Shown: piece by piece, positions 1-28,900 of the stretch
Numbering within the stretch: position 1 is the first letter of the stretch
Layout of the letters: the number at the start of each line of letters is the position of its first letter
Source: a virus
Length of the DNA: 43,226 nucleotides
Strand: one strand, 5' to 3'
Virus record (IMG/VR): IMGVR_UViG_3300030000_000017
Location: 1 to 43,226 of that record
Program-made: the position numbers and the translations under genes
Notes under the pieces: generated by a model
The model's database searches: none
What the model saw: the letters and a program-made list of their open reading frames with translations, nothing else
Told to the model about the DNA's origin: nothing

Positions 1-3000
1 TATTATATATATCAATTTCAGAAGCTTTAATACCTTGATTAGCAGATAGTAATCCACCCAAAGTTTTAAGTTCTTTAGAATAGTTATAAATTTTAATAAA
101 CTCATCAAAATAAGCTTTATTAATTCCAGCTTTAGCAGGATTAAGTTTTCCTAATTGTGCATCAATTGATGAACTTTTACCAGATTTAAAGAAGTCTTCT
201 TGTAAAGCAGCTTTAATTTTTAACGCATCATCACTAGTCATAAATTTACCAATAAGTGCTTCATCCATTCCTAATACTAACATATAAATATGCATTGAAG
301 CAAAATCTATACCAGCATTAATTTTAGCTAACATTAACTCTTTAGCATTATCAGTTGCAAGAGATAATAAAGCAGATATATTTAAAGCCGGATCATTTTC
401 ATCAAGAACTTTAGATAACTCTAATTTCTCTTCATCGTTAAATAAAGATCCATCTTTCTTAGTTAGATTAACTTCTTTAAGATTTTTATATACAATATCT
501 TCTAAAGTTTTAGTTGCTTTTTCTGTTAAGTTTAATCCTCCAATCTTTTTAAGATTGTAGTTCTTACCTAAAATATGAAAGTTTCTACTAAAGAATTCAT
601 TATCTTCTGATGTTACTTCACCATTATAATAATTAGAATAATATGTAACTAAAGCAAAATAATCTTTAAGTCCTGTAGCAGCAGCTCCAATTACTTTTTT
701 ACCTACAGCATTTTGTTCTTGTTGTAAGAATGTTGTATGACCATCATAATTACTTAAAGCATAAGAACCATCAATTTTCTTACCAATTTCTGTATACTTA
801 CCAAATGAGATTGGAGAATAAGATGCAACTTGATTTCTAGGACTAGTACTTAATGCAATTAACTTATTAACTACAAAGTTTTTAAATCCATTTTCATTAT
901 TGTATTTATTATGTTTAGATAATTGTTTAATAAATTTATCAGCAATTAAATCATTTTCACTATCAATATATTTAATTTCAGGATGATCTTTCAAATAGTT
1001 ATAAATATCAGCTCTTTCTTTTAATCTAAATGGATTCATGGTTGTAGGAATAACAAATGTTTCGCCTTCAAACTTTCCTCTAGTATATTCCTTTCCATTA
1101 GGTGCAGGAAGTCTTAAAGAATCTCTAACGTTATCATCAGATGAGAAATCAAAGAATGGTGATCATTTTTCAAAAGAACCATTTCTATAATCATACATCA
1201 TCATATAAACTTTATCAATATCAAAGTCAGAACCTTGTAACCATAATTGTCAGTGAGATACAAATGCATTATTCAAGTGTTCTTGAGTATATGCTACAGT
1301 ATTCATAGACATAAATGATTGATAAGCTTGTGCAGGAATACGAGCACTTAATGATAGATTAGACATTTTCCATGAATTAAACATAGTATTTTTCAAGTTA
1401 AACACATAACTGTCTTTAGCTCTACTTTCTCTTAATTTATCACGATATCCACCAGTATCTCAAAGATAACTACTAATATCTTTTGTTTTAGAATCTTGAG
1501 ATAAACCTGCTGTTTTAGCAGCATTTTTCATTTCAAGATAATACTTTTGTTTATTTTTCAAATAAGTTCTTGATGCAGCATCATTTGTATTATCAACTAA
1601 AAGTTTATATACATCTAATAAAGAATCAAGATTATCATCAGATACAATATTTTTATTAATGTTCATAAAATCATTTACATCAATTAGATCAAATTTGTTT
1701 TTACTACCACTAATAAATGATTTTAAATCTTCTAAAGAATTAACAACTAACATTTCATTATTTGATTTATCTTTAAATAATTTACTACCTTCTGGAAGAT
1801 TATACATCTTTTTACCTTGCATATCTTTACGAACTCTTACATCCTTTCCATTAAAATTTTCAGTAGATTCGTTAACAAAAAATGATTCTCCAATTTGAGT
1901 ATCTTTTCTTTTTAAAACATCATTGTCAATTGTATATCTATTATCAGAATTTATAATAATACCTAATTTCTTTCCAGTCTTTGAGTCAGATAAAAATACA
2001 TCACGTTCTAATTTTCTAGGAACATTTAATGCATTATTGATAATATTTCCAAAGAAATTCGGAGTTATATCAGCATGTTTAAATTCTTCTAATGAAAATT
2101 CAGATTGATAAACTTTAGGAATAATATTTTCAGCATGTTTATGTACATAATCACTAATTATATCTGTACTAAGATATTCAGCTTCTGGATCAATACCATA
2201 AGCAAATGTATCATTCTTTTCAGAACCACCTGATTTATATTTAAATATTTCATCAAAAGGATTAGCTGTTGTAGCGTCAGATGTTCTTTTAAAAATAACA
2301 CCTTTTTCTAATAAAGTATATGATCTATTAACTCATTTTTGCAAATATTTACCAATAAATTCATAATAATCTCTCATGTAATCTTTATGAGTTTCATGAG
2401 TATCTAATGGCATCATACTATGTATTGATTTAAAACGTTCATCATTCTTTGATAAATAATCAATGAAATTCAATACTTGTGGATGTGGAGCAAATACTCC
2501 AGTTTTCTTCCAAACCTTTATAGCTTGTTCAAAATTTCATTTAAGTTGAACTGCTTCTAAATCAAATGAGTTTTGACGTAGTCCATTAACATTATAAGTA
2601 ATTTCAACAGGTTTTAAATCTCTAGTAAGTCCATATATTTTTTCAAATTCATATTGACTATTTTCAAATAAATTCTTAAAGTTATAATAATTTTCAATTC
2701 TATCAAGATTAATTATATTGTTAGATTTATTATATTCAACTCCTCCAATTTCAACAGCATTATTATCTGTAAAAATAATTCGTATTGTATCTAAAGGATT
2801 GATTTCATTTAATAATACAGGTTTAGGTTTGAATTCATCAGAAAAATTTAAAACATGATCAATCTTAGATTTTAATTTATCATATTCAGTATCACCAATT
2901 GGAACAAATGATGCTTTAAGTTCATCAGAAAGTTTATCAAATTTACTAAGGATATCATCCATTATATATGTCTTGCCAACATTGTTCTCATAAATCTTCA

Positions 3001-6000
3001 TAATGCCCTGAGATGGATTTAAAACCATCGCAGCACCCCTAAATTTACGACGAATATAATCCGTATTTATTTTAGAAATTATTGATGAAACAAATTGTTT
3101 ATAAATTGTTTTATTACCATAAGGTATAAAATCAGAATCAGCAGGATTTAAAGTAGCTTCAACATTTTTATATAAAGAATCAACAATAATTTTACTGTTA
3201 TTTATTTGTGAACTATTCTCTAAACTTTTTACAAATAATTTAGTCAGTTGTTTCAGTTTATCTTCTCCACCTAACTTTTGGAATTGTTTTAAAGTATTAT
3301 CAATTATTGATCCAATTCCATTATATAAATCATTAAATAACTCAGGAGCTGCATTGTTTTCAGATGCAGCAGAAAGTACTTGTGTAATTTCAGATACAGA
3401 TGATTCATCAGAAGTGTGACCAGCATCTAATTGAATTCCAAAAAATGATGTATCAAAGTTAAACCAATTAGGTTTTGACTTATTAGTATGATGTAAAACA
3501 TCAGTATGATTGATATTAGTTGCACCATTTTTAACAGCAGATTCAGGTAAAAACATTGCAATCATTTTATCTTTTAATTTCAATCCTCCATTTAAAGCAT
3601 GCTTTTTAATGATTTCATTTACTATTTGAATTGATTGTTCAGTTTGAACAATTTTTTCAATCGTTCTACCATTTAAAAGTTTAGTAATCTTTTTAGATGA
3701 AAATGCTCCACCAAAGGCTTCTCATAAATCAAATAAGTTTTTAATTTTTAATGGTTGAATTTCAATATCTCCATTTGCATTAGCGTAACTTAATTCATAA
3801 CTTGTTTTACCTTTACCATCAGCTTTTTTAATAGAAATAACTTGTCTAAATTCTCCGTTAATTGGAATATATAAATTATCAAGATCAATACTTAAAGCTT
3901 CTCCTGTAAGAGATGTAAATATATTATCATGATCAGAATCTTTGAATATATCAAAATGATTCATTTTCTTCATCCATTCTCTTTGATTATAAGGAGAATT
4001 GATACTAGTTCTAATATTTTCATTAGTCATTCCAAATGTAGCACATTTCAAAAAAGTACTATGTCCATTGTGAATAGAAGTACCAATTGGTTTTTGAGTT
4101 CCGTTTAAACCTTTACCAGGTTGAGCAGATATAGATTGAGCAACAAAGAAAGGGTTAGCAGGAATACCACCATCAAATACTTTTTGATCATCTGATGCAC
4201 CAACTTGATTAAATACTTGAGCTTCTGGATCTTTAAATATTGCTAATTTAATTTGAGGTTCAATTCCTTGAGGACCTTTATTAAATATTGTCATACTAGC
4301 TCCAGTAATTACCATACGTTTTGTAAAACCTGTAGTTCTTTCTTTTTCTTCTAATCTCCAATCATTAAATCATCCTGATTCTTTAGTATTGATTTCAATA
4401 AAACTCTTTTTAAATGGGTGAATATATGCACCTTTAGTAGAAAGATTTTCATATTGACTTAATATTAAATTTCTAGACCACATATATTTTCTACCTAATT
4501 CAGATAGTTCAGTACCATCAGCATTATTCAATTTAAGATTACTAACTGATATTCTTTTACCATCTTCCATATTATAATCAAAAATATCATCAACATCTAT
4601 ATTAAAATGTTTAGCTATTTGTTCAGCAATGTGTTCAGATTTAACATGATAAGTTCCTTCGAATTTAGTATTTAATTTGATTTCTTTTGGAGAAATATGT
4701 GTATTTTCTAATGTTCAAGAAGCTAAACTTCCTTCCATATTTTTACTCCATTCATTAAATAATGATTGATCATTAAATATCATGAAATTAGTTTTAAGAG
4801 CTTGATTAATTTTCAAAGCCTTTTTACCATCAACTGAATATTCAGAATAATGTAAATCTCTAACTATTTCAGGATTTCTAAAATTATCATCATTACTATG
4901 ATTATGTGTATAAGATCTTGTTAATTTTTCAATAGCTTTAACACTAGTATTTTTTTCAAAGAATTCTTCAATTTGACTAATTTTATCTTTAGGATCACGT
5001 ACTGTAGATAATGAAGATGAATTATCAATCAATAATAAATCAGCATGAATATTATTTATAACTGATGTATAATATTGTAATTGATTTTGTTTAAAGTGAG
5101 ATTTTAATTCATCACTTGATAATTTAGCTAGTGTTCCACCTAAGTTATCTGTAACATTTGAATTAATTTCTAAAGCTAATATCTTACCTTTATCAGAAAA
5201 ATTCCAAGGTTGAATAAACATTCTATCTTCATTAATACTTGACATTAAGAAATTTCTAGTAAATGCAAGTTTAAATAAATCTTTTGAATTTAATTCATCA
5301 ATTGATTTAGCTTCATTTTTACCAACTACTTCACTTATAATAGCAGTACCTTTTATTAGATTAGGATTTTGTTTAAAGAAAGTATTAGCATTTGCTTTAG
5401 CTAATAATCTTCCAGTTAATGCTCCAACATAAGCAATTGACATAGTTGGTCATGAATCACCTTCCGAACTTTTAACTTGTGTTACAACGTTATATTTTTC
5501 TTCTTGATGTCTTAATTTAAATAACTTTTTAAAGTCAAATTCTTTAGATACATTATCTTCTTGTAGTTTAGCTATAATTTCATCATTAGTTAATACTCTA
5601 TCAGCTAAAGAGACATCTTCATTCATAACTTTAATATCTTTCATTAAAAGATTTTCTAATGATTTTCTAGTATTAGCTGTTAATGGATCTGATTCAGATT
5701 TAGTAGAACCTAAAAATGATTCTTTACTTTCTTTAGATAACTGTATATCAGCATATTTATCAATAAATGCAAATACTCCACCATAAGTAGAAAAATCAGC
5801 ATCTCTAAATATAGTAGAATCTGTTTTAAGTTTTTGCTTATAAGAAACTGTATTATTTACAAGTTGTTTGAAATCCACACCTACTTTAGTATCCATATGT
5901 AGATTGTCAACAGTTGTACCATTTCCTTCTACATCTTCCGATCTATATGTATTTTTAACTGTATTTCTTATAGCGTGAATTAATATTTGTTCAATATCAA

Positions 6001-7381
6001 TTGGTTTATCAGATATACCGATATTAGTTGCTTTCCATTCATTAAATAATCCCACAACTCCAGTATCTCTATGATATAAGAAATCATGAATACTATACAT
6101 ATAATTTTTAATGATACTTAAATCATCATATTTATCAGATTCATTTACTAAAGCTTTTAATATTGTTCTGAATGGTATATCGTTATTATCACGTTCATGT
6201 CTTTCAAATGCTTCATCAACTGTTAGTTTTGAACCTTTAATATTAAGTGTTAAGTCTTGAGGTAATGAATTCATTACTGCTCCAATAACATTAACACTAG
6301 TTGTTCCTAATGTAATACGATTATTTCCAAATAAATATCCTGAAGTTTTATCTCCATTTGATTCTTCAGATTCTTCAATTACATTGTGTTGTTTGAATGG
6401 GATGATATTAGAAAGTAATTTAAATAAACTTGAAGTATGATGTGATACATCAGTTCCTTCTATTGAATCAGAAGCTCATGTTGAAGTAGATGCTCCTTTA
6501 AATTTTAATGTATATTTAAATTCACTATTAGAAGGAGGTGCATATGTATTCATCCCATCCGGATTTACATTTATTACATCTCCATGTTTTTCTGACATTA
6601 ATTTATCAAAATTTGTAAGAATCAACATTCTTATATATCCTGATGTAGTTGAAATACCTTTAGTATCAATACTATATTTATCTAAAGCTTCAAATTTAGT
6701 TGTTACTGATTCTAATACTTTAGAATATGGTGTTTTACCATCTGTATCTGGAAAAAATAAATCAGGATTCAATCTAAATGCACGAGATCCAGTAGAATCT
6801 TTATCTGTATTATACAGATTAGAATCTTTTACTTCAGTTACTCCTGAAACTTTAGTTAGATATTTTCAAATATCATTCTTATAAACAAAGATATTATGTT
6901 CCAATGCTAAATCAGATACTACAAAGTTATTAAATCCGTTATCCCTGTTATCGTTATTAACGAATGAAACAGCATACATAGCGTACTCTAATTCAGAATC
7001 TAAAAAATTTTCAAGTGATTTATCATGTTTTAATAGTTTTGCTATATTTGAAGCATCTATTAAAGTTGGATTAGTTGATAACGATCCAGATGTTTTAGAT
7101 AGTCCATATCTAACTTGAGATATAATCTCATTAATATTATCAGAAGTTAAGTTAGGTTTGTTTAACTTTGACATTGATAAATATAACGAATTGAAATCAT
7201 ACACCCGTGCTTCAGGAGATTCTTCTATTCCCTTTAATATAAAATCTGACGCAGCAGATATTTCTTCATTTAATTTTTCATTATCTACTAAATCAGAACC
7301 GAAAATACCAAGGGGTTCTATCCCCTTGGCACCATTCAGTTTCTTGATTATTGCTTTAAAATTTTGTGAACATTTACTCAT
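1..7381 (-). CDS. Giant virion RNA polymerase, crAss-like (C-terminus beyond window)
   Basis: This gene is the single-chain multi-subunit-type RNA polymerase that crAss-like phages pack in the virion and inject to transcribe early genes. It starts at ATG 7379-7381, seven bases after the previous stop, and stays open to base 1 (2460 codons seen) if TGA is read as Trp. In-frame TGA codons lie at 6866, 6476, 5450, 4715, 4370, 3722, 2537, 1460 and elsewhere. The decisive motif is LQGSDFDIDK at 1211-1240 (first Asp is residue 2052). It is the Mg-binding loop of the beta-prime-like double-psi barrel; the DFDID form is that of the crAss-like phage phi14:2 polymerase and is related to DFDGD of YonO-type and cellular enzymes. 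An ARIPAQ stretch lies about 40 residues upstream, as expected for this barrel. The long N-terminal part (about residues 1-1200) has no domain I can name. The C-terminal catalytic modules are outside the window. The assignment is firm, but domain limits are not. Confidence 0.92.
7308..7329 (-). other. Start-proximal hairpin, RNA polymerase gene
   Basis: Perfect 8-bp inverted repeat CCAAGGGG-ttctat-CCCCTTGG lies 53-74 nt inside the RNA polymerase gene. It is very G/C-rich for this genome and encodes AKGIEPLG. Confidence 0.6.
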
Positions 7382-7388
7382 TTTTTAT

Positions 7389-10300
7389 TTAAAATTTACA
7401 ATTGTATTGGTTATTATCATTTAATCCACTTAATACTAGATTTTTGATTAATGAATTGTTTTTATTAAGTTGAACATTTTTATCAGGACCTAATTCAAAT
7501 AATGAACTTAGGGCACTAGTTATATTTAATCCGTCCATCTTTAACACTCCATTTTCAACATCTAAATCATCATAATTTTGATCAATAAATCCATTTATTA
7601 TTTTGCTTACTACAGCTTTACTTTTTTCAACATCTTTTGCTTTGTCAAACAAATTACCAAGTGGAACTCCAAATGTATTACCTTCAAAATCAAATGATAT
7701 GTGATTTGGTATTTCTACTCCAACTAATGTTGGTTCAGTTTTTACATTATTAGTATTTACTTCGTTTCCACCAATCTTACTTAATATTTTATCCATATTT
7801 AACATAATTTGATTAGGTTCAACAGGATATTGCATTTCATAATTATTATTAGTAGATACTGGTAATTTACCTTCAAATTCACCACTAACAGCAGGAGAAT
7901 CAATAATAGTATTGTAATAGATAGGTTTGTCATAAGTTTGAACAAAACTATTAAATCTAGTTACAGTATCTTCGTATTGAGATTTACCTTCTGTCATTAT
8001 ATTATGTATAACATATAAAGGATTTGGAATTTTAACAGGTATAACATCTCTAAATCTATTTCCGATTATGGATTTTAATTTAGGATTTTCTAATAAATCA
8101 TCAAAAGTTTTTTGAGTTGATGCATCATTGTTTATAAATCGCCCTAAATCCATTAAAGTTTCTACAATATGAAATGATTCTAAATCATTCTTAGATAAAT
8201 AATTTTTCCAAGAAATATGATTAACCATATCATCAATAATAGTATCAATGTTTTTACCAGCAACTTGTTCAGATTTTAAGAAATCATAGAATACTTTCCA
8301 TCCAGTATATTTAGACATTAATGCTAATTTTTTATATTTAGCATCTACATCTGTTTCATGGTCAGCAAGATGTTCTTGATTTTTTAATTTCTTATCAGCT
8401 TTAAGTTCTGTATCAGCTGTAGTTATTTGTGTTCAAGCTTCACTTAAAGTTCTACTTTTAGCATTTAATACAACTAATTTAGAATATTTAATATTTCCTT
8501 TAACATATTCAATAGTAACATAAGGTCTATAAGCATATCGGTTGTAATATTCTTCCGAGTTTCTTAATGTGAATTCATCATTAGTTTCATTCTTACCTTG
8601 AGTATTATAAGGAGTTTGTCTGTATTCTTCCATTGTTTTTTTAATATATTTAAGATAATCTCCATTTTGTAATACACCATGTGCATCATATTTTGGACCT
8701 CTAAATACTTTAATCTCACTAATGAAAGCTCCTGGAAATTTAGCTTTTAAATCTTTTACAGTTATAGCAGAATCCTTTTTAAAGGCATCTTTTTGAGCAT
8801 CATTCATAGTTGGAACTTGAACTCCCATATATGTTTTAATATCAGCACTATCAACTGTAATATCTCCTTTACTTGCTAAATCATATAACTTAGAAAGTTT
8901 TTCGAAATCAACATTAGCTTTAACAGCAGGATTTGAAATATCAGGCAATGCTGAAAGAGTTATAAAATGATTTGCACCACCAATTTCAACATTCATTCCA
9001 AGAACATAAATATCTTTACCTTTTAAAGCATTACTATTTACTAGTTTACCATAAGGATCAGTATACTCTCCACTTTTAAGTTTTCTTATTACTAAATCTT
9101 TTTGTTTAGTATCATTATTAAATAATCTAAAATCATCAGGTCTAGTATAAATTGTGTTATCAATTGTAGAAAATAATACTAAATTTTTCCATTTAATATA
9201 ATCGCCAACAACATCTCTAACACTTTGATCAGATATATTTACTAATCTAAGAATTGAACCTAAATCAGTTCCAGTACTATTCTTTATTAAGTCATCAATA
9301 TCAATATCAGATCCAATTATTTTATCTAAGTTATTAGAAATATCATGAATTCCAATATTATTAAAGAATGAATATCCTAATATATTACTAGGATCTTTAG
9401 TTTGAACAGTAGTAGAAATTGGAGTAATTATTTCAGGGTCTGAAGTTTCTTTCCAATCGGTATTAAATTTCTCATTTACAACTTTAACATCTTTATGTTT
9501 TATAGGATCAGATTGTTTATAATCCTTTGTCATATCTGATAATTCATCAATTCTCTTAGTTAAGAAATCTTTAGCTCTATCGTTATCAAATACTTTTTCT
9601 TCTGTACTTAATGACATTTCTGTTTTAATTCCAAAATTATCTAATAGAGTTTTAGAACCAACAATTAAAGTTCCAATTTTAGATCTAGTAACAAGAGTAT
9701 ATAAACTACGTATAGTATCAAAATCAGAATCAGATATTTTAATTGGATCAAGAATTACTACTTGATCAAATTCTTCACCTTGTACATTTTTAGAATAAAC
9801 TTTAATGTCAGCAGATTGAATACCTAAAGTACTTGTAATTAAAGATTGTGTTGAATCAGATAATTTACCACTATCAGTTAAGAACACAATTTCTTTAGAA
9901 GTATCTAATTTTAAAAGATCAGCTTTTGTAAGATTATCTACAAACTTATCTCCATTTAAAAATGTTTTATCATAATAAACTAAAGTAGGTCTATATTTAA
10001 TAGGTTCTTTCAAATATGAATCTCTATAAATAGCATCTGTAAAATTCTCCATAAGAATACAATTATCATTATGGTGTACATTCTTAGATCTAATTGTACT
10101 TTTAAGTTTAATAGATCTAGGAGTAGATATATTCTGTGTAGAAAATGATGTAGTACCAATTTTACTTCCATTTTGTAAATTATCACCCATTGCAATAACA
10201 TAGTAGTTATTGTTTTTAGCTAGATAATTAAACATTTGCCATTCAAGTGTAGATAATTGACTCATCTCATCAATCATTACAATTTTAGAACCTTCAATAT

Positions 10301-13300
10301 TATGACCTAAGAATACAGAATCTAACCATTTTTCATTTATAGCAACTGCACCATCTCCTTCACCTTTTATAAAAATCTCAGGATTTAAATCATCATATTT
10401 ATCTTGTTCTATTAAATTTAATTGTTCCATGTATTCATCATACTTAGAACCAATCATTGTTTTAATGTAGTCTTTAATTAAGTCTTCTTTTATTTCAACA
10501 GATACCTGATTCTTTAAATTCTCTTTTAATCCAGTAAGTGTTTTAGGTGTTGGTGCTAAAGCATGAATAGAAATATTTTCACTCGGAACTTTAGAATCAA
10601 TTATCATTCTTAAAGGAAAGTTTCCTAAAATTGTAGTTTTACCTGTTCCAGCAGAGCCAAGAACATTAAATACATATCCAATAGAGAAACTTCTAGATTG
10701 ATCAATAGCTTGTTTATAGGCTTCTTTTTCAGTAATTGTAGTACCTGCATCTTTTGCATCAGCAAGTATAGAATTCTTTAAAGTATAAATACTAGGTTGT
10801 ACAAACTCTATAGAATGAGCCATTATATCTTTTCCTAATCTACCATTAAAATAAGCTTGTTCTTGTCTTTGTACAAATTGTTGTACAAAAAATGGAGCTT
10901 TTACTTCCGACAAAGATACTTCATTTTCTAGTAACTTTTTATAGTTTAGATAAAAATCTTTACTACTAAGAGCCAGTACAGAATGTAAATAAAAATATCA
11001 ATCTTTTTTCTCAAGTTGAGTCAAATCCTTTGTCAGATTAGAATCCTTACCATCAATAATTGACTTGATAATATTTTCAGAATTATCATTGCCTTTAAAC
11101 GGAGCAAAAACTTCATCTAATTTGTCTGTCAAGTTTCCTTCAGCATTATGAAAATTAGTATAAATTCTATGTTCAAATTCAGCAAGTTTACTTTCAGCTA
11201 AAACTATTTTATTAATAGCATCAAGATCATTTTGATTTATTAAAGTTCTTCCATTCACAGTTAGTTTACCTGCTGAAATTTCAGAACCATCAGTCATTCT
11301 TTTTAAAATAGAACTAACTAATGCTGTTTTGATTAAATTATGTTCTTCAATTAAAGATCCAGAGTTTCTTTCTGCAAGAGTTTTAAAATAGTTTAATTTA
11401 TCTGAAATGAAAGTTAAATCATCATTTATGATCTTAGCTGACGTACTATCAACCAATCCAAATTTTCCACTAACTTCTTCGAACTTTTCAGCAGCCATAT
11501 TTAATGAAACATTATAACCATACAAATCACCACCTAATCCTACTTCTGTAGAAGTCATTGCTGAAATTACAGAACGTACAGCAGTTATTGTAGATAAAGC
11601 TTTATTTAATTGATCAATTTGAACATTATTTCTAATAAATTGAGACGGTGCTACAATATTATCAAATAAATCATAATTATCTCTTAATAGTTTAAAGAAT
11701 GAAATAGGACCTGTTTTACCTCATAGATTTATCTGAAACTCATTCAACTTGTCCAAAAACGTATTCATTTTACGTTTATTGTATTTAAGAATTTCATGAA
11801 TGTTTAAATAGTCTTTATATCCACGATCAATTAAAGCTTTACCTAATTCTGAATTTTCATCGAATTCAAAATTATCTAAATCAGGAATTAATGCAGAAAG
11901 AGAACTATTTTGAATATTTACTCTAATTTCATTAGCAGCATCTGTTAATTCTTTAACCGCTTCATTATCTAAATCTTCACCTCTAGCAATTACATTATTA
12001 GCATATTTAATTAATAAAGATCTACGTGGTGAAATCTTATCATTGCCTTTTGTAAAAGTATAATAATCATCATCAGAATGTAGCGCTTCATTATAAACTT
12101 CTTCTAATTTAGGATCTGAATTTCCTTGATTGATAGATATTTGATCCATTTTACTTTTAACAGTAGAATTGAATACATCTTGAATTTCAGTAAGTGTTAC
12201 ATCAGTTCCTTTATTTTGAACATAAGTATCTAATGCTGTAACAATATCATGAGTAACTTCATCAGTATCTTTGTCAAATCAGTCTGCTAAAATTTGGTCA
12301 GCATCAGAAAAACTAATAATTCCATCTTCATTAGTAACACTAGATAATTCATCTAATACTTTATTAGCTTCAACTAATAATTTAGATTTTATTAAATCTT
12401 TATTAACAGCTTTCTTTTCATATCCATTAACGTGGATTGTTCCAATGTTCCCAATAGTTGTAATTTCACTATCTTTGGCTAAATGTTGCATTAGAACATC
12501 TTCTGTAGCTAAATCCGCAGATTGAGAAATTGTTTCTTTCTCACCCATGATTTGTTTTACTCGTCCATTTTTACTTCCGTTATAAGCATCAAATGCTTTT
12601 TGTATAATACCGTAATCTAACTCTGTAGACGGAAGACCTAATGAATTTACAATAGCAAATAAATGTTCTTTATCTCCAGTACTTAAAGTATTAATATCCC
12701 TCTTTTGATTTAATTCTACATCAGCATTATTAATATCAGTATTAATTTCTTCTTGAAGTGGAGCAATTTTTTCATTTATTGTATTAATTTCATCTGGTTC
12801 TGTAACAGTAGATAATTGTTCTTCTAACTTATTTAATTCTTCAAGTTTAGGATTGATTAAAGCATCACGTCTGTTAATTATTTCAACTTTTTGTTCTTCT
12901 GGTAAACCAATTTGAATTAAATTCATATCGTTTAAGAAATGAGCAACATCAATATCAGTATCAGATGTAAGACTTGCAGTTCTAAAACCATTCTTATCTA
13001 ATTCAGTATTTAATTGTTGTAATCATTGTCAGTTAGTATAAGCGTCAGTTAAACTTAAACCTTTACCTTTATTTCTAAAGTTAGCTAAGAATGAACTTCT
13101 AGTATTAGCATATCCATCAGCATTAAACTCTGCAATTGAATGTGAGAACTCTTCATTAATTTCCAAAAATCTATCAAACATTGATTTCATTTTGTTTTTA
13201 AAATCACCTTTACTTTCATCAAATATATTATCAAATTCTGCTTTATAAGTTTTCTTTTCAGATTCACTAAGTGAATAGAAATCTTTATCATATTTATCTT

Positions 13301-15836
13301 TAACATAATCGTCAACAGATAAAGAAATAAATGGTGCGTGTAAATTTTTATTTAATGTAAATAGTGATAACTTATGATAGTATTCAGCCTTTTCACCTTT
13401 TAATAATTCTTCAACTAACTTTCTTTTTTCATTAAGTTTAGATTGAATATCACCTTTACCTACTTCATTTTTATTTACACTTTTATCATCTTTTTCAGTT
13501 TGTACATTTTCTAATTGAGTAGTAAGATCTACAATATCTCCAATTAATTGAGTAAAATCTGATTTTACAAAAGAATCAGTTCCGTTTTTCTTTAAATCAG
13601 CAATTCTAATATCATCAACAATTGCTTTTCTAATAACAGATTCATCATCTTCTTTTATGTTTTCAAGATTTAAAATTCTATCAGCATTTTGAATATATGC
13701 TTTAGTAGCATTAGCAATAACATCAGCTTGACTCATTCCACTATCACCATCTTTAGCTAGATAAATTTGTTTACCATCTACATTAGTTGTAACTGGAGAT
13801 AAATCAGTACTTCCAAATCTACTTTTTTGTTTATCAATTTCTTTATATAAATCTTCTGCTTGACCATTAGCTACAAGTTGAAGTACATTATATTTTGTTT
13901 CTTGTTCAATACCGTGTCCAGATAAAATAGGTGATATAACTGAATGTTCTAATTCAAACATAGGTCCTCCAACCATACCTCCAACTAAGTTAGATACATA
14001 ACGTTCAAATCCTGATTTACTAAATACATTATCAAATCCTCCAAATGAACCTTGTTTCTTAGTAAATCCACAAGCACTCATAATATCAACAATACCTTTA
14101 GCTGCATCAGAAGCAAGTTCTTCTGAAACTTCTTCAATACCTTCAATCATTGATACTTTAAATAATTTTTCAGCTAATTGACTTTCTCCAATAGGTTGTG
14201 TAATTAAATTTTGAAATCCTTGTTTAGCTTTTGAAAATACATTCCCCAATGCTTTTTTACCAGCAATTTTATCTGTTGCAAGTAAATTAACAGCTTCTTG
14301 TGTTTCACCCATTAATTCACGAGTAACACTTCTAATTCCAGCTTTATTAACTTCTTCAGTATAACCTGTAGATTTATCTAAAAACCAGTGACCTAAATTA
14401 TTATTCTTCATTAAAGCATATTGACCTGATGCGGCTAATAATGCAGCAAAACCTGCTGTTCTATTATCATATCCTCCAGCTTTAGCATCACCATAAACAT
14501 CAGCAGATTGCGTCATAGCCATGTAACCTAAGTTTAATGTTTCAGCTAATTGTGATCGTTTATGATTTATAGATTCAAGTGTTCCAATTTTATCGTAGGC
14601 AACTTGAGCAAGACGTTCGTAGTTTTCTTTACTTCTAGTTATACCTTTTACAGCATCACCAATAGCAACATCTTGAAGAATATCTTCAGTTTGATTAGCT
14701 AATTTTGCTAAATATTCAGTCTCATGTGACTTATAAAATAAATTAGACAAACTACCAGCAGCACGTTGTTCATAGATTTGTGAAAAAGTATCTGCAACCA
14801 TACTTCCCATTTGTTCATAATTCCACATAGATTGTGAACCCGCATCTGAAATACTTCTAACATCATATTTAGAAAGATATCCTTGTGCAGTATTCATTGC
14901 TTTCCATAGTGATGTTTCATTACCTTTTTCAGTATCACCTGTAAATAATGCTTCTGCGGCTTTATAAAAAGTTGGAAGTACAGTAGCTAAACCTAATGCC
15001 ATTTTCATTCCACCATAATATACATTAACTCCAGGAATTAAATAAGGTGCAACTTGTGTAGCAAGTTTCATAGTAGTCCCAAATACAGATTTATCTTTAC
15101 CATCAGAATCAAAGAAATCTACTTTATTTAATTTAGAACCATCAACAGTAATTAAATCCATAGGATTTACTATTTGTTTACCATATACTTCACGTTTACC
15201 AAGTGTTTCAATATAAAGATTTCCATCTTTATCATATTTCCAATCACCTTTTTTATGATTTACATGTCTTTTTGTCATAGGATCTATATCAGCACCATCT
15301 TCATCCCACTGAGCATAAACCATTGTAGGTCCCACTAAAGAACCCATTAAACCCATGTCATTAGCTGATTTATCTAATCATTGTTTAGATTCAGAATCAT
15401 ATACTTTTGATTGTTGAGCTAATTCTCTTAAAGATAAATCAGATACATCAATACTATTTATTCCAGTTTTACTATATAATTGTTTAAACGGATTATAATC
15501 CTTAGTTATAACTGGAGCTACATCTGCACGTAATGCTCCTTTTGGAGCAGTAAAATCTGTTGGATCATATTCTAACGCTTTAGCTAAAGCTTTATCATTT
15601 CCTAGGTCATTATACAACGACGCAGCTTTTTGATAAGCTGCGTTGAAGGTTTTGTCATCGAATTTACCAGATGCATCTTTAAACATCGATTGAACTTTAT
15701 CTAATTTTTTATAATCGTCCATAGGTAATAGTTGAGTATTACTTGGAACAACATTAGAACTAGCTAAATCGAATAAATTTAAATCTGGTTTCTGCACTAA
15801 TGCAGAAAATATATCATTTGGTTTTGTAATTTCCAT
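7389..15836 (-). CDS. Giant virion protein with embedded SF1 helicase domain
   Basis: This 2815-aa protein is assembled by reading seven or more TGA codons as Trp (8433, 10998, 11721, 12279, 13023, 13029, 15378); it ends in TAA at 7389. Residues 1-1650 are mostly helical and of unknown function, with a hydrophobic Gly/Ala-rich segment near residues 255-290. A superfamily 1 helicase/ATPase core follows: Walker A GSAGTGKTT (residue 1727, 10632-10658), motif Ia-like ALAPTPKTL, Walker B VMIDEMSQL (Asp1856-Glu1857), motif III GDNLQ, motif V NVQGEEFDQVVIL (about 2022) and motif VI TLVTRSK (about 2046). The order and spacing fit UvrD/RecD-type enzymes. About 750 unassigned residues follow. The gene lies directly upstream of the virion RNA polymerase (7-bp gap), so it is probably virion cargo injected with it. 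A role in opening DNA for early transcription or in genome entry is inference. Homologous large genes flank the polymerase in other crAss-like phages. Confidence 0.85.
15789..15808 (-). other. Start-proximal hairpin, helicase gene
   Basis: Perfect 8-bp inverted repeat TTTCTGCA-CTAA-TGCAGAAA lies 29-48 nt inside the 2815-aa gene. It belongs to a series of hairpins at similar offsets (see findings). Confidence 0.6.
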
Positions 15837-15844
15837 ATTATTGT

Positions 15845-17698
15845 TTATTTACTATTGAAAAAACTGAAATCAGCTTTAACTTGTGGAGTTTCATATTTTT
15901 GCAGATCTACTCTAGCATCTGTTAAGTTTTGTTGTTTATTCTGCATATGACCTGCAATTGAAGCAGCATATATAGAAGCATCTCGTTTATATGGAACTGC
16001 AATCATTCCTTTATAATAAGTGGTTGTCATATCAGTTCAACCAGTAGGAGCCTTAACTTTATTATCTTTTCATACTGTTTTTAAAGCATCTGATACAGTA
16101 TCTTGTTCTTTACTGTCCAAGGCTTTAACTTCAGAATTATTATCTGCTTCAGAAGCACCTTCAGCAGTATAACCATACATTATTAAGAATGGTTTTATAT
16201 TATTGTTTTCTCGTACTACAAAATCATTACCAACTTGAACATATCCAAATCCATGACGTTTGTAATAATCATTGATTATAGCAGGAGACCAATCATTTTT
16301 ATGTTTTTCAATTTCTGATTGAACTTCATTAAATTGTTTAAGTGCATTATAATTAACAGTACCATCATTATTAGACGGCATATATACTTTAGCAGCAGTT
16401 CCACCATCATAAATAATATCATTAGCGCCTTTCATTCCAATAATTTTATCACCAAATGTAGCCTTACTCATATCAACAAGAGAACCATTTTTAGAATTCA
16501 TTATATTTTTAAATGTAGTCATACCTAATGGAGTTCCATCTTCTGTAGCTAATCTTGCAGCACCTGTAACATGTAATATCATTTTCTTATTAGTTGTAAT
16601 ATCATTTCATTGCATTGGAGCTGAACCAGTTTTGCCATTATGTAATAATTCAAAAGGTGATACATTAGCTAATCCTTTTGCCGCGGCTGAAGCTTCTTCT
16701 GTAGCTCCTGGTAATTTCTCTGGAGAAATCGCAGAAGATGTTTTAGCAGTTGTATTAGTAATCAACATATCTAATATAAAATCTCTTGGATCTTTACCAC
16801 CATTAACTATAGCAGTTGCTTTTAGTTTTTGTTGAGCATGAACATCCATTGTTTTTCATAAATAGTCTAAAGCTTTATCAATATGATTTCTTTCTGAACT
16901 ATTTTCTGTAATAACTTTATAATGATCTCCAGGAGTGTTAATTATTTGATTTAAACTTTCTAAAGCAGATTGTTGTTCTTTTGTTGGACCTTTTACTGAT
17001 ACTTGTGATTTTAAAATATCATACTGTCCTTTAACTTGATCTTTAGAATAAAAATTTTCATTATGAGTATCTTCTGTTCCTAAAGAAGCAATTAAATCTT
17101 TAAGATTAGTTTTTATTTTATCTAACCCAATAGCATTATTTGCAACATCAAATATTGAATTTTGTCCTGATAATTTAGGATTATATTGTCTTTCATTTAA
17201 TAACTCTGCAACAGATAATAGTTTATATTGATCTTTGTGTTTATCGTATTCGTTAACGTTAATTGCACTAACATTTCCTTTAGCATCTTTACCATAAACC
17301 ATATCATTATTTACAGCAACTTCACCATAACCTCCTGCAGCAGTAGCTGTTTTAGCAGCTTCATCTCAAGCAGATTTACTTTGTTTAAGTTCATTAATTT
17401 TACCAACTAATCTTAATGACATTGCTCTATTATTACTTTGAGCATATGGATACATACTTCCCGAATTAGTTGATTCAATTTTAGCTAATTCAGAAACAAA
17501 TCCGTTAACATCATTTACTAAACCTTTACCCATTAAATCTTTAAATACATCATCATCTAACATAGATGAAATAGTATGTTTACTTTCTTTAGATGAACTA
17601 GATGATGAAGAAGTTGCTTGTACAGGTTGTTGTTCAATGATGGGGGTGAATGTTGCAAACCCACCCCCTTGTTGAAATTTATTTATATTATATTTCAT
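15845..17698 (-). CDS. Putative virion cargo protein, 617 aa
   Basis: I do not recognise a domain in this protein. It starts at ATG 17696-17698, which overlaps the previous TAA by one base (TAATG), and ends in TAA at 15845. Five or more in-frame TGA codons (17366, 16856, 16607, 16070, 16037) are read as Trp. The N-terminus MKYNINKFQQGGGFA has the FQxGG-type motif shared with neighbouring virion genes, followed by a Ser-rich linker. The rest is soluble and mixed helix/strand with no clear membrane segment. It lies in the block of large genes before the RNA polymerase, so it is probably a capsid-internal or ejected protein. A perfect 7-bp inverted repeat of G/C-rich sequence lies 31-57 nt inside the gene. 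Confidence 0.7.
17642..17668 (-). other. Start-proximal hairpin, 617-aa gene
   Basis: Perfect 7-bp arms GGGGGTG and CACCCCC with a 13-nt loop, 31-57 nt inside the gene. Confidence 0.55.
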
Positions 17699-20600
17699 TA
17701 TTTTGCATTTACTTTCTTATTGTTTGATGCTATTGTCTCATAAAATAATTTATCTGAATCTAAAGCATTTGTTTCAGTTTGACTCAAATCTATATTATGT
17801 TTATCCACAGGATTATTAACACTATGAATTACTTTATAAAATTGTTTTCTGTCTGCTTCTACTTTTTTAGCTATTTGTCCACCTTTCTTTAAAGATTGTC
17901 CGTACATCATAGCCATTTGAATATTTTTTAAACGTTCATTAAATGGTTTAATTTGAGATTCTTTAGCTTTAAGAGCAGTTTGTCATTTAGCATAATCAGA
18001 TGATTTTTCCCAATCAATAGGAGTTATTCCAGGAGTTTTCATTTGAGTATCATAATTCTTTCTAAATGAATTATTAGTTTCATCAGCTAATGTATTATAC
18101 TCTTCACCTAATTGTTTATATTTAGGATCTTGTAAAATATTAAACATTCCAGTTTGACCTTCACGTTGTTTTTTCATTATATCGTTTTTCTGATTAGCTA
18201 ATAATAGAACATTAAGAGCTGTATTCTGAGCTGAACTTTGAAGCGCATTTATTCCGTGGATTTTTCCAAATGCGTTAGCGGCTAAACCTCTATTCTTACC
18301 AAGAACTTCAGTATTATATTTAGCGGTATTAGCGTTCATTTGTAATTGTTGTCCACGCATTTGATCAAGTCTTTGAGTATCTGCCATTTGAGCTTTATCT
18401 TTTAAAATATTACCTTGATTAATTCCAGATAATCTAACACTAAATCCTTTATCAATGTCAGCAGTTGAAGCAGCCATTCTAGCAGTTTTACTGTTAACAG
18501 CAGCAGCTTGTTTGTCAGCTTCTAAAGTATGTGGTCTATCAGCTCTAATATAAGTATTTGACATATAAGGTAATGTGTACATACTATCTGCAACACCTTT
18601 CCTTTGAGCATTTCCAATATCTTTATTAGTTCTAACTGTATTTAAATACATTGCTGTATTTAATAAATCAACTTTATTAAGTTTAGGAAATTTAATTCCT
18701 TCACTTTGTTTATTAACTGTTGTTCCAGATTGTGTAGTTGGTGTAGTTGTGTTTCCAAATAAATTAGTTGGAAGTTTTACTGCGGCAACATCAAATCCTT
18801 TATTTTTAGGTTCTAATCTTGTAGCAGATTCATTAAATTTATTAGTCATATAATTATGATATGGACCATATTTATTATCAGTAGCTAATCCTTTAACTTG
18901 TGCTAAATCTTTTACTGATACATTACTTCCAGCAGATTGAATAAATTTATTTAAATCTTCTTTATTTCTAGCTAACCAATTTTCATCAAGACCATTAACA
19001 AAATTAGTGTATTCAGGAGTATACCCTCCATCTTTAGTTTGCCATGTAGATACATCTTTTAAATCACTATAAGGTAAATAATTACCTGAACCTGGATGTT
19101 TATATGTAGTATTAGCTGTTGGTGCAACTGTAACTTTAGGTGCAATAGTACCAACTAATTTAGTAGGAACAATTGGTTTATTAATAACAGGTGCAGATAT
19201 AATAGGTTGTTTTGTAGAATCAGGCAATGTCATAGATTGACCTTTATTATTAGTAAATGTATGACCAGAAGCTCCGATTGTTTCATTAGTAAATCCAGCC
19301 TTTCTAAGTTTACCTTCTTTTAAAGCTTTATCTAATACAGAAAAATCCATTTTAAATGCTCCACCTTGTTGGAATTGTATAACTCCACCTTCTTTATGTT
19401 CTACCATATTTTTATTATATTTGTTTCAGGCTTTGTTTAAACTTATTTTTCTTTTATAATCAGTGGCTTTATTAGCTCTATCTAATCCAAGAATAGCTTT
19501 TACTTTAGGATCTTTAAGTTTTTCTAAATTCTTTTGTTCACCTTGACGTAATTTACTAATAGCACTTTCTTGGAATTTCTTACCATATCAAGAACGTGGA
19601 TCAGATTCTTCTTTTATAACTCGTTCTGATTTAGCTTTGTTATCATTCATACCCGTAACCTTAGCTACTTTACCTTTAATACCTAACCAACCTTTATCAA
19701 TTTTAGCAGCTTTTTTAGCTTCATCAAGAGTTTCTATTTCAGCTTTAAGTTTAGAAATAGCACCTTCATCAGGAGTTTCTTTTGCATTTAAAGCATCTAA
19801 TACTGATTTTTTAGGTGCAATTACTTTATCAAAATGTTCATTAATTGCAACTTCTGGATCAGTTCCTTTAGGAATTGTAATTTTAGATTCAACACCTTCT
19901 GGTACATTCTTTAATTTAAAGTCCGTACTAGCTTCTTGTGTTTGAATTTTAGTAGTTCCAGCGTGTACTTGTGCTAAATTATATAAACCTTTAACAGCTT
20001 GCACACCATGTACTAAACCTCTAGCATCTTGAATAGAAACATTTCCTAATCCACCTTCTTCTATATCTTGTGCAGTTTGTCTAGCAGCTGTTCCAGCATT
20101 TACTAAACCATAACCTAAAAATGCAGGTTTTGCTAATTTTGCAGCTTTTGATACTATTGATGATGCTGGTTTGAATGCTCCTTTTACTAAAGCTTTAGTT
20201 TCTGGAATTCCATATTTAGCAATTTTAGCAACTTTTTCAACTTCACTTAAACCCTCAGCTGATTTTACAATAGCTTTAGCTCTATTTAAATTTAATAATT
20301 CTTTACCTACTAATTCAACACCTTCTGCATCTTTAATTGCAGTTTTTGCAATTTTAAGAATATGTTCAGCCTTTTCAGCTTTAGTTGCAAGTTTAGCTAT
20401 TTCAATACCTGTTTTAGCACCTTTTAAACCAAGTTTAGCAGATGCTGCTCCTGGAATTAATGATAATGCTGTAAATCCTAAATTCAATGCAGCATTTCCA
20501 GCAGTTTCTCCAAATCCATGTCCACGTAATATATCTGAACCTAATGTTGCAGCTGTTGATGTTAAACCTCCTGCAAGTCCGGCAGCGGTTCCACCTAAAC

Positions 20601-21606
20601 TTACAACATCTCCACCTAATGCAATAGCATCTAAATAATCTGCTGTAGATCCTTTTCCAGATAACATATCTCCAACTTTACCACTACCTGTAGCAGTTGG
20701 TTTTTCTTTTGGATGAAAATAAGTTGTAGTTGTTTTACGAATATATGCTTGTGGTTTATGTGGTGTTGGTACTACTGGTGCAGTTTTTGCAGCAGTTGCT
20801 GCTGTTAAAGCAGCTGCATCATCAGCAGCTTTCTTTTCTGCATCTAATTCAGTTTGTGTTTTTGGTGGAATCAAATAATCATTCATTTTCCAACCTAATG
20901 CATATGCTTTCTCAGTTACTTTATCCCAATTAGGATTTGGTTCACTTAAAGCAAGTTTTAATGCCTGAGCATTATCGTAATCTTTATAATCGTAAGAATC
21001 TTTATTCTTAGTGTAATCATTTAAATAATCATCAACTCCTTCTTTTGCCCAACCTAATACTCTAGCTTTTCTTTCATCATTAGTTTTGAAAGTATTTAAA
21101 TGTGTAGCAAGTGCATTAACATCATCATGATAATGTTTATTTGATACAATATTAGTTAAACCTTGTACTTCTTTTGAATACCCTGTTTGCGCTGTTGGAG
21201 TTGTAGTAGAATTTGTTGACTCTATGTGTGTTCTTAGTGCATTCATTGCTGAACTAAGTGATTCTTTATCAGCATCATTACCTCTAATCTTAACACCTAA
21301 TCCTAACATATCTTTACTAAGAGGTTCGTCATGACCTGTTCAGTTGAATTTCTTTAATTCTTCTGGAAGTTGAGATGTGTCAATACTATATGTTTGATCT
21401 GGATTAAATTTTAAAGCTTTATCCATAGCTCCACTTTTTACAAGAGCAGCTACTTGATCGTAAGCAGGCTTAGCTCTTCTAGCTTCTTTAGAAGACATCG
21501 AATACAAATTATCGTATAATGCCTTTTCTACCTGAGAATAATCTTTTGGAGTATTATTTGGATCAGGAGCTTTACTTCCCGTTTGTAATTTTCTTACTAA
21601 TGCCAT
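17698..21606 (-). CDS. Large Ala/Lys-rich putative ejected virion protein, 1302 aa
   Basis: This reading frame runs from ATG 21606 to TAA 17698 through TGA-encoded Trp at 21340, 19588, 19426 and 17983, among others. The N-terminus is MALVRKLQTGSKAP. Residues about 315-390 form a long run of Gly/Ala/Leu/Val, which could insert into a membrane, and are followed by Lys/Ala-rich amphipathic helices. Such composition is common in phage ejection or tape-measure-like proteins. At residue 734 an internal Met is followed by KEGGVIQFQQGGAFKMD, almost the same as the N-terminal motif of the next gene, as if two proteins had been fused or a processing site lies there. The C-terminal 570 residues are Gln/Asn/Lys-rich and polar. 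It follows a terminator and begins the block of giant genes that ends with the RNA polymerase. No named family recognised. Virion cargo is the best guess from context. Confidence 0.7.
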
Positions 21607-23507: not shown

Positions 23508-24647
23508 TTAAGCTTCAACAGTTTCTATAAGTCCTGTATTGTCTTGAGTATTTTCTAATATCTCATAAACTAACAACTTACCAGCTTTAAGTGCTATGTC
23601 TTCATCTCCATCTTTATATTGTTTAAACATCTCTTCTAACTTGTCTGTAACATCTTTATTAAAAATGATTTCATTAAGTTCAATTTCTGCGTGTTGAGTT
23701 ATAGCACCACCTTCATCCATTGTTACAACCGGAATACCTTTATCAGTAACTTGTTCTGAAATTTCTTCTGGCAGATCGTGTTTTCTAGCATGTAATGCTC
23801 CATCAGGTATAACATTAAATTTACCACCATCTTCAAATACATCTATTTCAGGAACTTCAATTACTTCTATGATCGGTTTAACTCTTAAAGAATAATTAAC
23901 CCGATTTTTAATATTAGTCATTTGTAGTTTACTTCCGCGTTTTGCAGCTAATATATTAGTTGTTATACCTCCAAACAATTTCTGTTGATTTTTGGTAGCG
24001 ATGTCTCCAAATGAATTCGCAGAAGCTAACATATTCTGTTTACTTTGAAACATAGAATTACCCGCAAGTAAATTCTGTTTATCATCATATTTAGTCAAAT
24101 TGTTAGCATTTCTAGTTTTACCAGCTCAAGTACCTAATAAAGTCTGTTTCTTTCCAGCATTAGTATTCATATTAAATGAATATGCTCCAGTATCTAATCC
24201 AGTAGTACCTTGCTTTTTAGCTGTAGTTCCTGCAAATTTATTTAATGTTGTAAGAGCAGTAAGACCAGCTCCGATTCCCATTAATGCAGGATTACCAGAT
24301 TTAAGCATCATACCAGCTCCTTTATCCATAAGTCCCATTGTACCCTCTTCTAAATCTGAGCCAGTTTCAGCACGTTTTAAACCTGCTGCTTGTAATCCAG
24401 TTTCTAATAGTTGTGGAGCTTCTCCAAGTATTTCAGATCCTACAGAAGCAGCGGGTGCTGCTCCTGGGATTTGTGTTGAACCTGATTTAATAGTAGATCC
24501 ATTTGCATTCATACCTAAGTTTTTATTAAGTCCTTTTATAATTTTATTTATATCTAGACTATTTGTAGATAAATATGAATTCTTAGAACTTAATTGTTGT
24601 AAAGATCCAGATGGTGTTTGATATTTTTTAATTAATTCTTTAGGCAT
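23508..24647 (-). CDS. Conserved crAss virion protein, 379 aa
   Basis: The gene runs from ATG 24647 to TAA 23508 with one internal TGA (24126) as Trp. The N-terminus is MPKELIKKYQTPSGSLQQ; residues 30-130 are Gly/Ala-rich with a hydrophobic stretch. The C-terminal half is the recognisable crAss part: FEDGGKFNVIPDGALHARK, then GIPVVTMDEGG, NEIIFNKDVTDKLEE and GKLLVYEILENTQDNTGLI. I know this pattern from other crAss-like phages, where it lies close to the DUF192 gene. The exact role is unknown. The start overlaps the end of the 1419-aa gene by 8 bases. Confidence 0.78.
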
Positions 24648-27600: not shown

Positions 27601-28899
27601 AATTGGTTTAATTGATAAAGTTCCATTCATCATTGACTTTTCAGTCATATCTATTTTGAATACACCTTTTACATTTTCATCAGTACCTTCGATTAAATAA
27701 TCATCTCCATAATTAATATCATCTCCAATTTTAGGAAGATATGAATATATTGTATTTTCATTAATAACTTTTTTACCTCTAATATTAAATACTGGAGATA
27801 ATGTATAATCATTCATAATATAAACTATTCCTAATCGATAAACTTCTTCATCTCAATATCCTAATTTATAATATATATTATTTGCATTAAAATATTCATT
27901 TCCTATAAATGGATATCTTTCATTATAATTTTCATCTAAATATCCAATGCCATTAGTATCATACATAGGAGTAGGTATAGCATATAAACTATACTTTTCT
28001 AATGTTTTAAATACTTCATAATTATTTGTAATATTTCCAGCAAAACAAATATTTTGACAAGTTGCCAATGTTTTTACTGAATCAAAATTTGCATATTTAA
28101 TATTAATACTATCTGTTGTAATTTCAGTATGATTTTCATAACCTGTAATAGAAATTTCAGTATTATTGTTTACAATTTTAAATTTGTCTTCAATAAAATA
28201 TGTTTTAACTATTTCAGAATCTCCATCACCTGTAGATCTTGTATAATATATATTAATGTAATCATAAGCTAAATCTAAATTGTTTAATCTAAATTTAATA
28301 ACTTTATTACTATTCTCATCTAATTGACCTCCTCTTATTGATTTAGGTGAATTTACTGTTCCTATGTGACATATTACTTTTCCTGATTCAGCAATAAAAT
28401 CTGATTCATTTCCATCATAATCTGCTAATTTAAAATAAAAAGTATAATTTCCAACTTTCATATTACCACCATCTTTAATTCCTAAAAAATCAATAGTAGT
28501 AATTTTATTAGTATTCTTTATTAAACTTGCTTCAATTTTAAAATTGTCAGCTGAATAAATATTTGTGTCTAAGTTACCATGTCTATCTGCAATTTTATAT
28601 TCAGTTGAACTTGTCAAATAGAATCTAGAATTTATGATTTTAGGAGGATTAACATCATCCGTAACTATTATATTTACTGAATCATCATAAGATACTTCAG
28701 TAGTAATCGCTATAGGATGATCAATATTTACTTTTGCTACATCAGCATCTAATCTTAACGGTAAAAGAGATTTTTCAGGTACAGTTGCACTAGGATTCAA
28801 TAAATTATAAAAAGGAGCATATTCATATAACAGGGTTCCTGATTCAGGAATCCCGTATATAGAATTAGTTATTGATAAATTTATTATTGGTAATGCCAT
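24640..28899 (-). CDS. Large conserved crAss tail protein (muzzle/stem-like), 1419 aa
   Basis: The frame is open from ATG 28899 to TAA 24640 with TGA read as Trp at 27853, 26800, 25933, 24823 and several other points. The N-terminal 330 residues are beta-rich and include GGNMKVGNYTFYFKLADYDG, NESDFIAESGKVICHIG and NIYYTRST. Further on come EEVYRLGIVY, LSPVFNIRG and TKGFFIVRQKRIPTILAQ. These are strongly conserved in a large structural protein found in all crAss-like phages, which I place in the muzzle or tail-stem assembly. The gene starts one base after the collar-domain gene. It carries a hairpin (TTCCTG-att-CAGGAA with a GGG/CCC extension) 46-67 nt inside. Virion role is firm; the exact position in the tail is inferred. 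Confidence 0.82.
28833..28854 (-). other. Start-proximal hairpin, 1419-aa tail gene
   Basis: TTCCTG-att-CAGGAA, then one bulged T and a GGG/CCC extension, 46-67 nt inside the gene. Confidence 0.55.
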
Positions 28900-28900
28900 T

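Follow-up and report, generated by a model that had tools for sequence, protein, structure and literature searches.

The crAss-like phages are very abundant in the human gut, and how their long genome enters the cell and gets transcribed is an open question. Virions of one of them, PhicrAss001, were found by mass spectrometry to contain gp45, gp46, gp47, gp49 and gp50, according to the accessible text of PMC10172136. Giant proteins of the crAss transcription block were described by Yutin in 2021, and the available part of that paper (PMC7886860) has 'SF1 helicase' among its gene abbreviations. As set out in the available part of PMC5512222, polyvalent proteins, among them DarB of phage P1, are injected giants, some with a helicase module; DarB, a methylase plus a superfamily 2 (SF2) helicase, is the archetype of that combination. 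We analysed a stretch of 43,226 nucleotides of viral DNA (IMG/VR record IMGVR_UViG_3300030000_000017, positions 1 to 43,226; hereafter the window), whose minus strand carries, from 15836 down to 7389, a giant gene of 2815 codons. Its protein, P0001, was found to contain a superfamily 1 (SF1) helicase core, and the gene adjoins that of a crAss-like RNA polymerase. Taken as a whole, the best explanation, to which we assign a probability of about 0.45, is that the giant is a late, virion-packaged cargo protein, an SF1B translocase delivered with the polymerase and acting on the entering genome.

The SF1 helicase domain occupies residues 1610–2121 of the giant protein (9474..11009, minus strand, as are the motifs below), as judged from Pfam, profile searches against the PDB, an AlphaFold2 model and fold searches. 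Within it stand, in order, motif I or Walker A (GSAGTGKTT, residues 1727–1735; 10632..10658), motif II or Walker B (VMIDEMSQL, 1853–1861; 10254..10280), motif III (GDNLQ, 1884–1888; 10173..10187), the motif IV arginine R1916 (10089..10091), motif V (NVQGEEFDQVV, 2017–2027; 9756..9788) and motif VI (TLVTRSK, 2047–2053, with arginine R2051; 9678..9698). The first-pass annotation of this DNA had quoted five of these motifs as lying in order inside a giant protein; all five were recovered, together with the motif IV arginine. Pfam AAA_30 matched the giant with E 2.7e-9 (37.5 bits; cut-off 27) and AAA_19 with E 2.3e-7, also above its cut-off; UvrD_C_2 (E 3.9e-5, 23.9 bits) fell below its cut-off of 27.4. 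The same scan showed no methylase, protease, ADP-ribosyltransferase, SF2 or other second enzyme in the giant. When a helicase profile of 25 sequences was run against the PDB, it matched NAM7 (yeast Upf1, 1.6e-11), RecD (1e-9) and human Upf1 (3.6e-8). Single-sequence PDB searches with P0001 and P0002 gave no match, and in PHROGs the giant had no significant match (best E 0.091) and the polymerase none at all. A hydropathy scan of P0001 showed no strongly hydrophobic stretch. A chance match of motifs is ruled out by the Pfam, profile and structure evidence.

AlphaFold2, given 25 sequences, modelled residues 1610–2121 as two RecA-like domains with a pLDDT of 81.1 and a pTM of 0.82, which is the arrangement that the first-pass annotation had looked to a structure prediction to reveal. 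When this helicase model was compared with known structures by VIA-align, the highest scores were those of DSH9 (Z 20.2; 307 aligned, 5.2 Å) and T4 Dda (3upu, Z 20.1; 285 aligned, 3.8 Å), the latter over model residues 24–450, followed by UvrD (17.5), Pif1 (17.0) and RecD2 (16.3). Foldseek matched the model to RecD2, RecD and Dda with E values of 1e-8 to 1e-7 and low TM-scores (about 0.2–0.4), for which the two RecA-like domains may perhaps be set differently in the model than in known structures. By its fold and sequence-profile matches (Dda, RecD, NAM7 and Upf1 among them), the domain is an SF1 core most like SF1B, of the RecD/Dda/Upf1 type. HelD was also found, both among the profile matches (6wvk 1.5e-8; 6yxu 2.4e-4) and among the fold matches (Z 15.6), and the giant gene neighbours a polymerase gene. 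The SF1 module might thus bind an RNA polymerase, the phage's or the host's, and use ATP to open, protect or recycle it rather than mainly to unwind. We consider this improbable: T4 Dda, DSH9 and Pif1 outscored HelD and RecD2 tied with it, SF1 folds generally resemble one another, and the comparison is one of the core model by itself.

Relatives of the giant were collected with its N-terminal region alone. About 900 residues (alignment A4, helicase excluded) were searched against viral contigs, and 33 loci (L numbers below designate loci) were returned, 5 being copies of the window and 28 (L022–L049) non-window. An iterated profile detected the helicase domain in 23 of the 28; L043 was added from its motifs by eye and by alignment, giving 24/28, a count that leaves unaligned L045 and L047, whose frame length equals that of L043. 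L024 and L044 end upstream of the helicase region. A non-redundant set of 27 helicase domains was then compared (19 read with TAG as glutamine, 5 with TGA as tryptophan and 3 under the standard code), L019, L020, L021, L026 and L049 being left out as duplicates or near-duplicates. The median pairwise identity was 23%; two pairs were far closer, at 94% and 88%. Eight residues, K1733, D1856, E1857, Q1888, R1916, G2020, T2047 and R2051, were invariant (27/27); D1885 and E2022 were each kept in 26 sequences and Q2019 in 25, and position 1734 was Thr in 23 and Ser in 4.

For the helicase domain, dN/dS was 0.06–0.29 in five pairs of closer relatives (dS up to 1.5, hence partly saturated). Four pairs were compared for both the N-terminus and the helicase, and in three of them the N-terminus was under the tighter constraint; the C-terminal region was less constrained than the helicase in 5/5. 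The first-pass statement that the ATPase should be active is borne out to the extent that invariant catalytic residues across very diverged relatives, together with these dN/dS values, argue for its use. Small departures from the motifs do occur in single relatives: L040 has Asn for Asp in motif III and Pro for Gln in motif V, in L043 the initial Gly of motif I is missing and motif V has Gln in place of Glu, and L041 has His for Gln in motif V. They would suit a relict core, a structural or regulatory ATP-binding module devoid of translocase activity. With the catalytic lysine, the Asp-Glu pair, the motif III glutamine and both arginines present in all 27, such a relict is very improbable. It may be added that tblastn of a phage collection yielded two records with the giant, and the same two when the domain of L027 was the query; with the domain of L043 no record was found. 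Protein P0006, used as a query against viral contigs, led to no confirmed relative.

The giant gene begins with ATG and ends with TAA. Read with table 11, its frame is broken by seven internal stops (codons 153, 936, 938, 1186, 1372, 1613 and 2468), all of them TGA and none TAG. As every internal stop is TGA and the last is TAA, the 2815-residue protein requires TGA to be read as tryptophan; other window frames near the gene also lengthen under this reading. Reading TAG as glutamine was ruled out for the window, there being no in-frame TAG in the giant gene and seven TGA instead. Matches of 100% identity to P0001 were present in five IMG/VR contigs, one of them spanning residues 1–2373 only, and a 213-kb contig (L005, record G001) holds a 100% identical copy of the gene. 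The 213-kb contig also encodes a tRNA with anticodon UCA (L054:14014-14087; labelled tRNA-SeC by ARAGORN), which could read TGA. It has 24 tRNA genes within one 16-kb stretch (L054, L055).

Where neither cut nor split, the giant frame of the relatives runs to about 2,700 to 4,000 codons. It is open under the standard code (e.g. L006, L034, L043), with TGA as tryptophan (L025, L035, L040) or with TAG as glutamine (most others), so that a single group of related phages (L006, L007, L017, L018, L022–L049) reads homologous giant genes under three codes. Being open in relatives under each code, the frame is that of a real gene. An assembly error or a pseudogene was ruled out by the TGA-only internal stops, the 100%-identical contigs and the open frames of standard-code relatives. 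In MT835492 (L007:19992-24614 and 24596-29263) and in L018 (4908-9527 and 9515-14164) the giant is split upstream of the helicase into two overlapping ORFs that lie in different frames. Their helicases are 88% identical, and hence the split is hardly a single sequencing error; it may yield separate proteins or be bridged by frameshifting. According to the accessible text of the Zeta paper (PMC12386605), phage Lera has both its polymerase ORF and its helicase ORF interrupted by TGA; the latter may be the same gene as the window giant.

The window derives from a crAss-like phage. Its minus strand encodes a major capsid protein (38302..39732; Pfam Crass_capsid, 48 bits, cut-off 27), a muzzle protein (24640..28899; crAss_MUZ, 71.2 bits, cut-off 27) and, at 2..7381, a crAss-like RNA polymerase of which 2460 residues lie in the window, the gene being cut by the window edge; in the window copy L003 its frame has 2985 codons. 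The polymerase has the DxDxD motif GSDFDID (1214..1234, minus strand). Its family matched by hhalign a gp50 profile built from PhicrAss001, cr111_1, cr126_1 and cr118_1 (probability 95.3%, E 2.4e-8, 61 columns around the DxDxD motif), and a three-sequence polymerase profile found no polymerase in the PDB. The earlier placing of the giant gene beside the virion polymerase, among giant cargo genes, is supported: it adjoins the crAss RNA polymerase gene in a block of structural and cargo genes. Membership of the Zeta crAss-like group (proposed Echekviridae) is only suggested, by relatives' contigs of up to 194 kb, opal and amber recoding and the UCA tRNA.

Upstream of the giant, on the same strand, lie a 617-residue gene in the position of PhicrAss001 gp46 (15845..17698) and a 1302-residue gene in that of gp45 (17698..21606; gene-order comparison), both assigned by position only. 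The order resembles that of Steigviridae cr111_1, in which the muzzle gene, the gp45-, gp46- and gp47-position genes and the polymerase lie on one strand, but at least three extra frames separate the muzzle from the gp45-position gene in the window. In 35 of the 36 loci examined, duplicates counted, the gene immediately preceding the giant is a homologue of the 617-residue one; the miss is L026, which starts at the giant. Downstream, the three-sequence polymerase profile matched in 23 of the 36, and in 6 of the remaining 13 the contig stops short. The giant gene thus fills the gp47 position, after a gp46-position gene and beside the polymerase. From this gp47-like position, and from the presence of PhicrAss001 cargo proteins in virions, the giant of the window would be packaged in the virion and injected.

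Several side observations were made on these neighbours. In MT835470 (L006:28904-35731) the polymerase frame ends within the DxDxD motif (LQGSDYRLN...), and the polymerase profile matches again in an ORF further on, a pattern as for intron insertion. Larger frames contain the gp46-position gene in L046:6489-10001 (1171 codons) and L048:6246-9983 (1246 codons). Homing-endonuclease-like genes lie among the structural genes of the window at 36388-37281 and 30679-31623 (tblastn to phage homing endonucleases; GIY-YIG Pfam match). A Fib_succ_major domain (E 6.3e-26) is encoded at 41738-42841; a receptor-binding role for it is a guess.

The N-terminal region of the giant (residues 1–905; 13122..15836, minus strand) has, by alignments and a low-confidence model, a conserved mixed alpha/beta start followed by a long, mostly helical stretch. 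The model of residues 1–900 reached a pLDDT of 70.7 and a pTM of 0.49, and its best match in the PDB (Z 8.6 over 68 residues) was uninformative. In BFVD the two best matches to the helicase model were UniProt A0A8S5RTY8 (TMq 0.71) and A0A8S5TKT5 (TMq 0.61), and the same two entries matched the N-terminal model best, in each case through fragments consecutive with those matching the helicase. Parts of the N-terminal model were also matched by three entries from CrAss-like virus sp. ctYsL76 (A0A8S5QLU6, A0A8S5QMC9, A0A8S5QLK8), of which one bears the name 'Type III restriction enzyme, res subunit'; this looks like the piecemeal annotation of a giant gene that is recoded.

A second arrangement of helicase and polymerase was seen in cr118_1 (MT774379, Suoliviridae). 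Here one frame of 4946 residues (L065:16381-31221) has both the polymerase motif, GSDFDID at about residue 3209 with gp50 similarity at E 4e-26, and a C-terminal SF1 helicase, with its core at 4469–4924 and an AAA_30 match of E 5.2e-29. The same frame bears a zincin-like HEAFH motif. The helicase would thus seem to belong to the transcription cargo of particular branches, where it occurs in two arrangements. Both the gene neighbourhood and the SF1 domain on the polymerase chain of cr118_1 suggest that it is coupled to the polymerase. These data bear also on an anti-defence role, in which a DarB-like injected giant would use its translocase to block or dislodge restriction, RecBCD-like or other defence complexes on the incoming DNA, the polymerase being a mere fellow passenger. 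Such a role has a precedent in the giant, injected and sometimes helicase-bearing polyvalent proteins, as far as their description is accessible, and the lesser constraint on the helicase than on the N-terminus in 3/4 pairs might be expected under conflict. It is nevertheless unlikely in our estimate, the giant lacking any second enzyme such as the methylase of DarB, adjoining the polymerase gene in the window as well as in 23/36 loci, and having in cr118_1 a counterpart domain on the polymerase chain itself.

A number of results weigh against a packaged helicase that works with the polymerase. AAA_30 was detected in 5 of 14 named crAss-like records. In cr110_1 and crAss002 (Intestiviridae) it is in a separate frame only; MT835470 and MT835492 have it twice each, in the giant and in another frame of 456 or 506 codons, and so already possess a separate AAA_30-type protein. 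No AAA_30 match was obtained in the Steigviridae PhicrAss001, cr111_1, cr126_1, cr116_1 and phi14:2, nor in the Suoliviridae cr1_1, cr4_1, cr124_1 and cr55_1 (four of five examined). From these nine of the 14 records it follows that crAss polymerases work without this helicase, which is not a universal need of theirs, and, PhicrAss001 and phi14:2 being among them, that a strict need for it in promoter opening is weakened. Moreover, the helicase half is a separate ORF in MT835492 and L018, and in seven uncut loci the three-sequence polymerase profile had no match downstream. Similarity to gp47 was weak: hhalign of the N-terminus gave a probability of 45% when 6 gp47 sequences were used and 22% when 7 were (controls at most 0.4%), a fold search with the low-confidence N-terminal model retrieved no entry recognisable as gp47, and blastp of P0001 to gp47 gave no match at E 1 (P0006 was likewise used), leaving homology unproven. 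The gp46-position proteins had no detectable similarity to a gp46 profile (0.1%). Homology of the giant to the packaged gp47 is thus only suggestive.

With packaging deduced from gene position, and gp47 homology only suggestive, the giant might instead be an enzyme made late, neither packaged nor injected, with a part in replication, in recombination or in packaging of the DNA. A search of the 213-kb contig limited to AAA_30 matched only the giant and one PhoH-like protein, so that the giant could supply a general helicase there; the second protein was ruled out as another SF1 helicase, being PhoH-like. A Cpn60-like chaperonin and a PhoH-like ATPase are encoded in this contig at L054:6081-7529 and 10091-10873. 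Against such a late intracellular enzyme, which we regard as having little likelihood, stand the position of the giant between the gp46-position gene (35/36 loci) and, where detected, the polymerase (23/36), and the separate AAA_30-type protein that MT835470 and MT835492 possess.

We therefore favour, tentatively, the packaged translocase. The giant sits in the transcription-cargo block, with genes in the position of ejection proteins on one side and the virion RNA polymerase on the other. Its first 900 residues or so would probably serve packaging, passage and assembly with other cargo, and its internal SF1 domain, whose fold is predicted and whose catalytic residues are present, would be an ATP-driven nucleic-acid translocase. 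Once ejected, the giant may refold in the cytoplasm, close to the polymerase delivered with it or in contact with it, and may unwind the entering DNA or track along it, allowing the first transcription to begin; it may also clear host proteins and thereby help to draw the genome in. That diverse relatives retain the helicase suggests that infection by these phages starts with the delivery of a helicase together with the phage polymerase. A more doubtful proposition is that an entire branch among the crAss-like phages carries in its virions, and ejects, an SF1 helicase and a polymerase as a ready-made pair, the helicase motor opening the genome and reeling it in for the polymerase; in cr118_1, of another family, the two are one chain. 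Should the cargo contain a working SF1 motor next to the polymerase, a helicase may drive both early transcription and genome entry in this branch. Poxviruses package both a polymerase and a helicase, and these phages would then be their counterpart.

The first-pass annotation knew of no described case of such a protein, which has to be amended. Public labels exist: the cr118_1 giant is annotated 'DNA helicase', and the two UniProt entries that match both modelled halves are A0A8S5RTY8, 'RecD-like protein' (Siphoviridae sp. gcode 4), and A0A8S5TKT5, 'Helicase' (Podoviridae sp. ctz6O13), these being database names only. Helicase-bearing injected giants are also known, P1 DarB (SF2) being one in the accessible description. 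In the literature surveyed, mostly below full-text level, we recognised no description of an SF1 helicase in a crAss virion-cargo protein; Figure 3 of PMC7886860 may mark one.

How, then, does the giant compare with known systems? DarB, in that part of its description which is accessible, is likewise a giant protein with a helicase module; it is set apart by its methylase and its SF2 class, the giant of the window being SF1 with no methylase in Pfam. Gp47 of PhicrAss001, a Steigviridae cargo protein annotated as a putative RNA-polymerase subunit, shares with the giant its place after gp45 and gp46 and a weak N-terminal profile similarity. Unlike the giant it has no helicase match, and it has instead an HEAFH motif near its C-terminus and a further string, which from the motifs we take to be zincin-like and PD-(D/E)XK-like, respectively. 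In cr111_1 the polymerase follows the gp47-position gene on the same strand, as in the window. T4 Dda, RecD2, Pif1 and Upf1, all SF1B enzymes, share with the window core the two RecA-like domains and motifs I–VI; the core differs from them in being an internal part, of about 500 residues, of a 2815-residue protein in a cargo position, with 14–17% identity in structural alignments. The giant of cr118_1 shares the SF1 RecD-like core and lies downstream of genes of gp45-, gp46- and muzzle-like size, annotated as hypothetical. Its helicase, however, is C-terminal and shares a chain with the polymerase motif, whereas that of the window is internal and its polymerase a separate protein.

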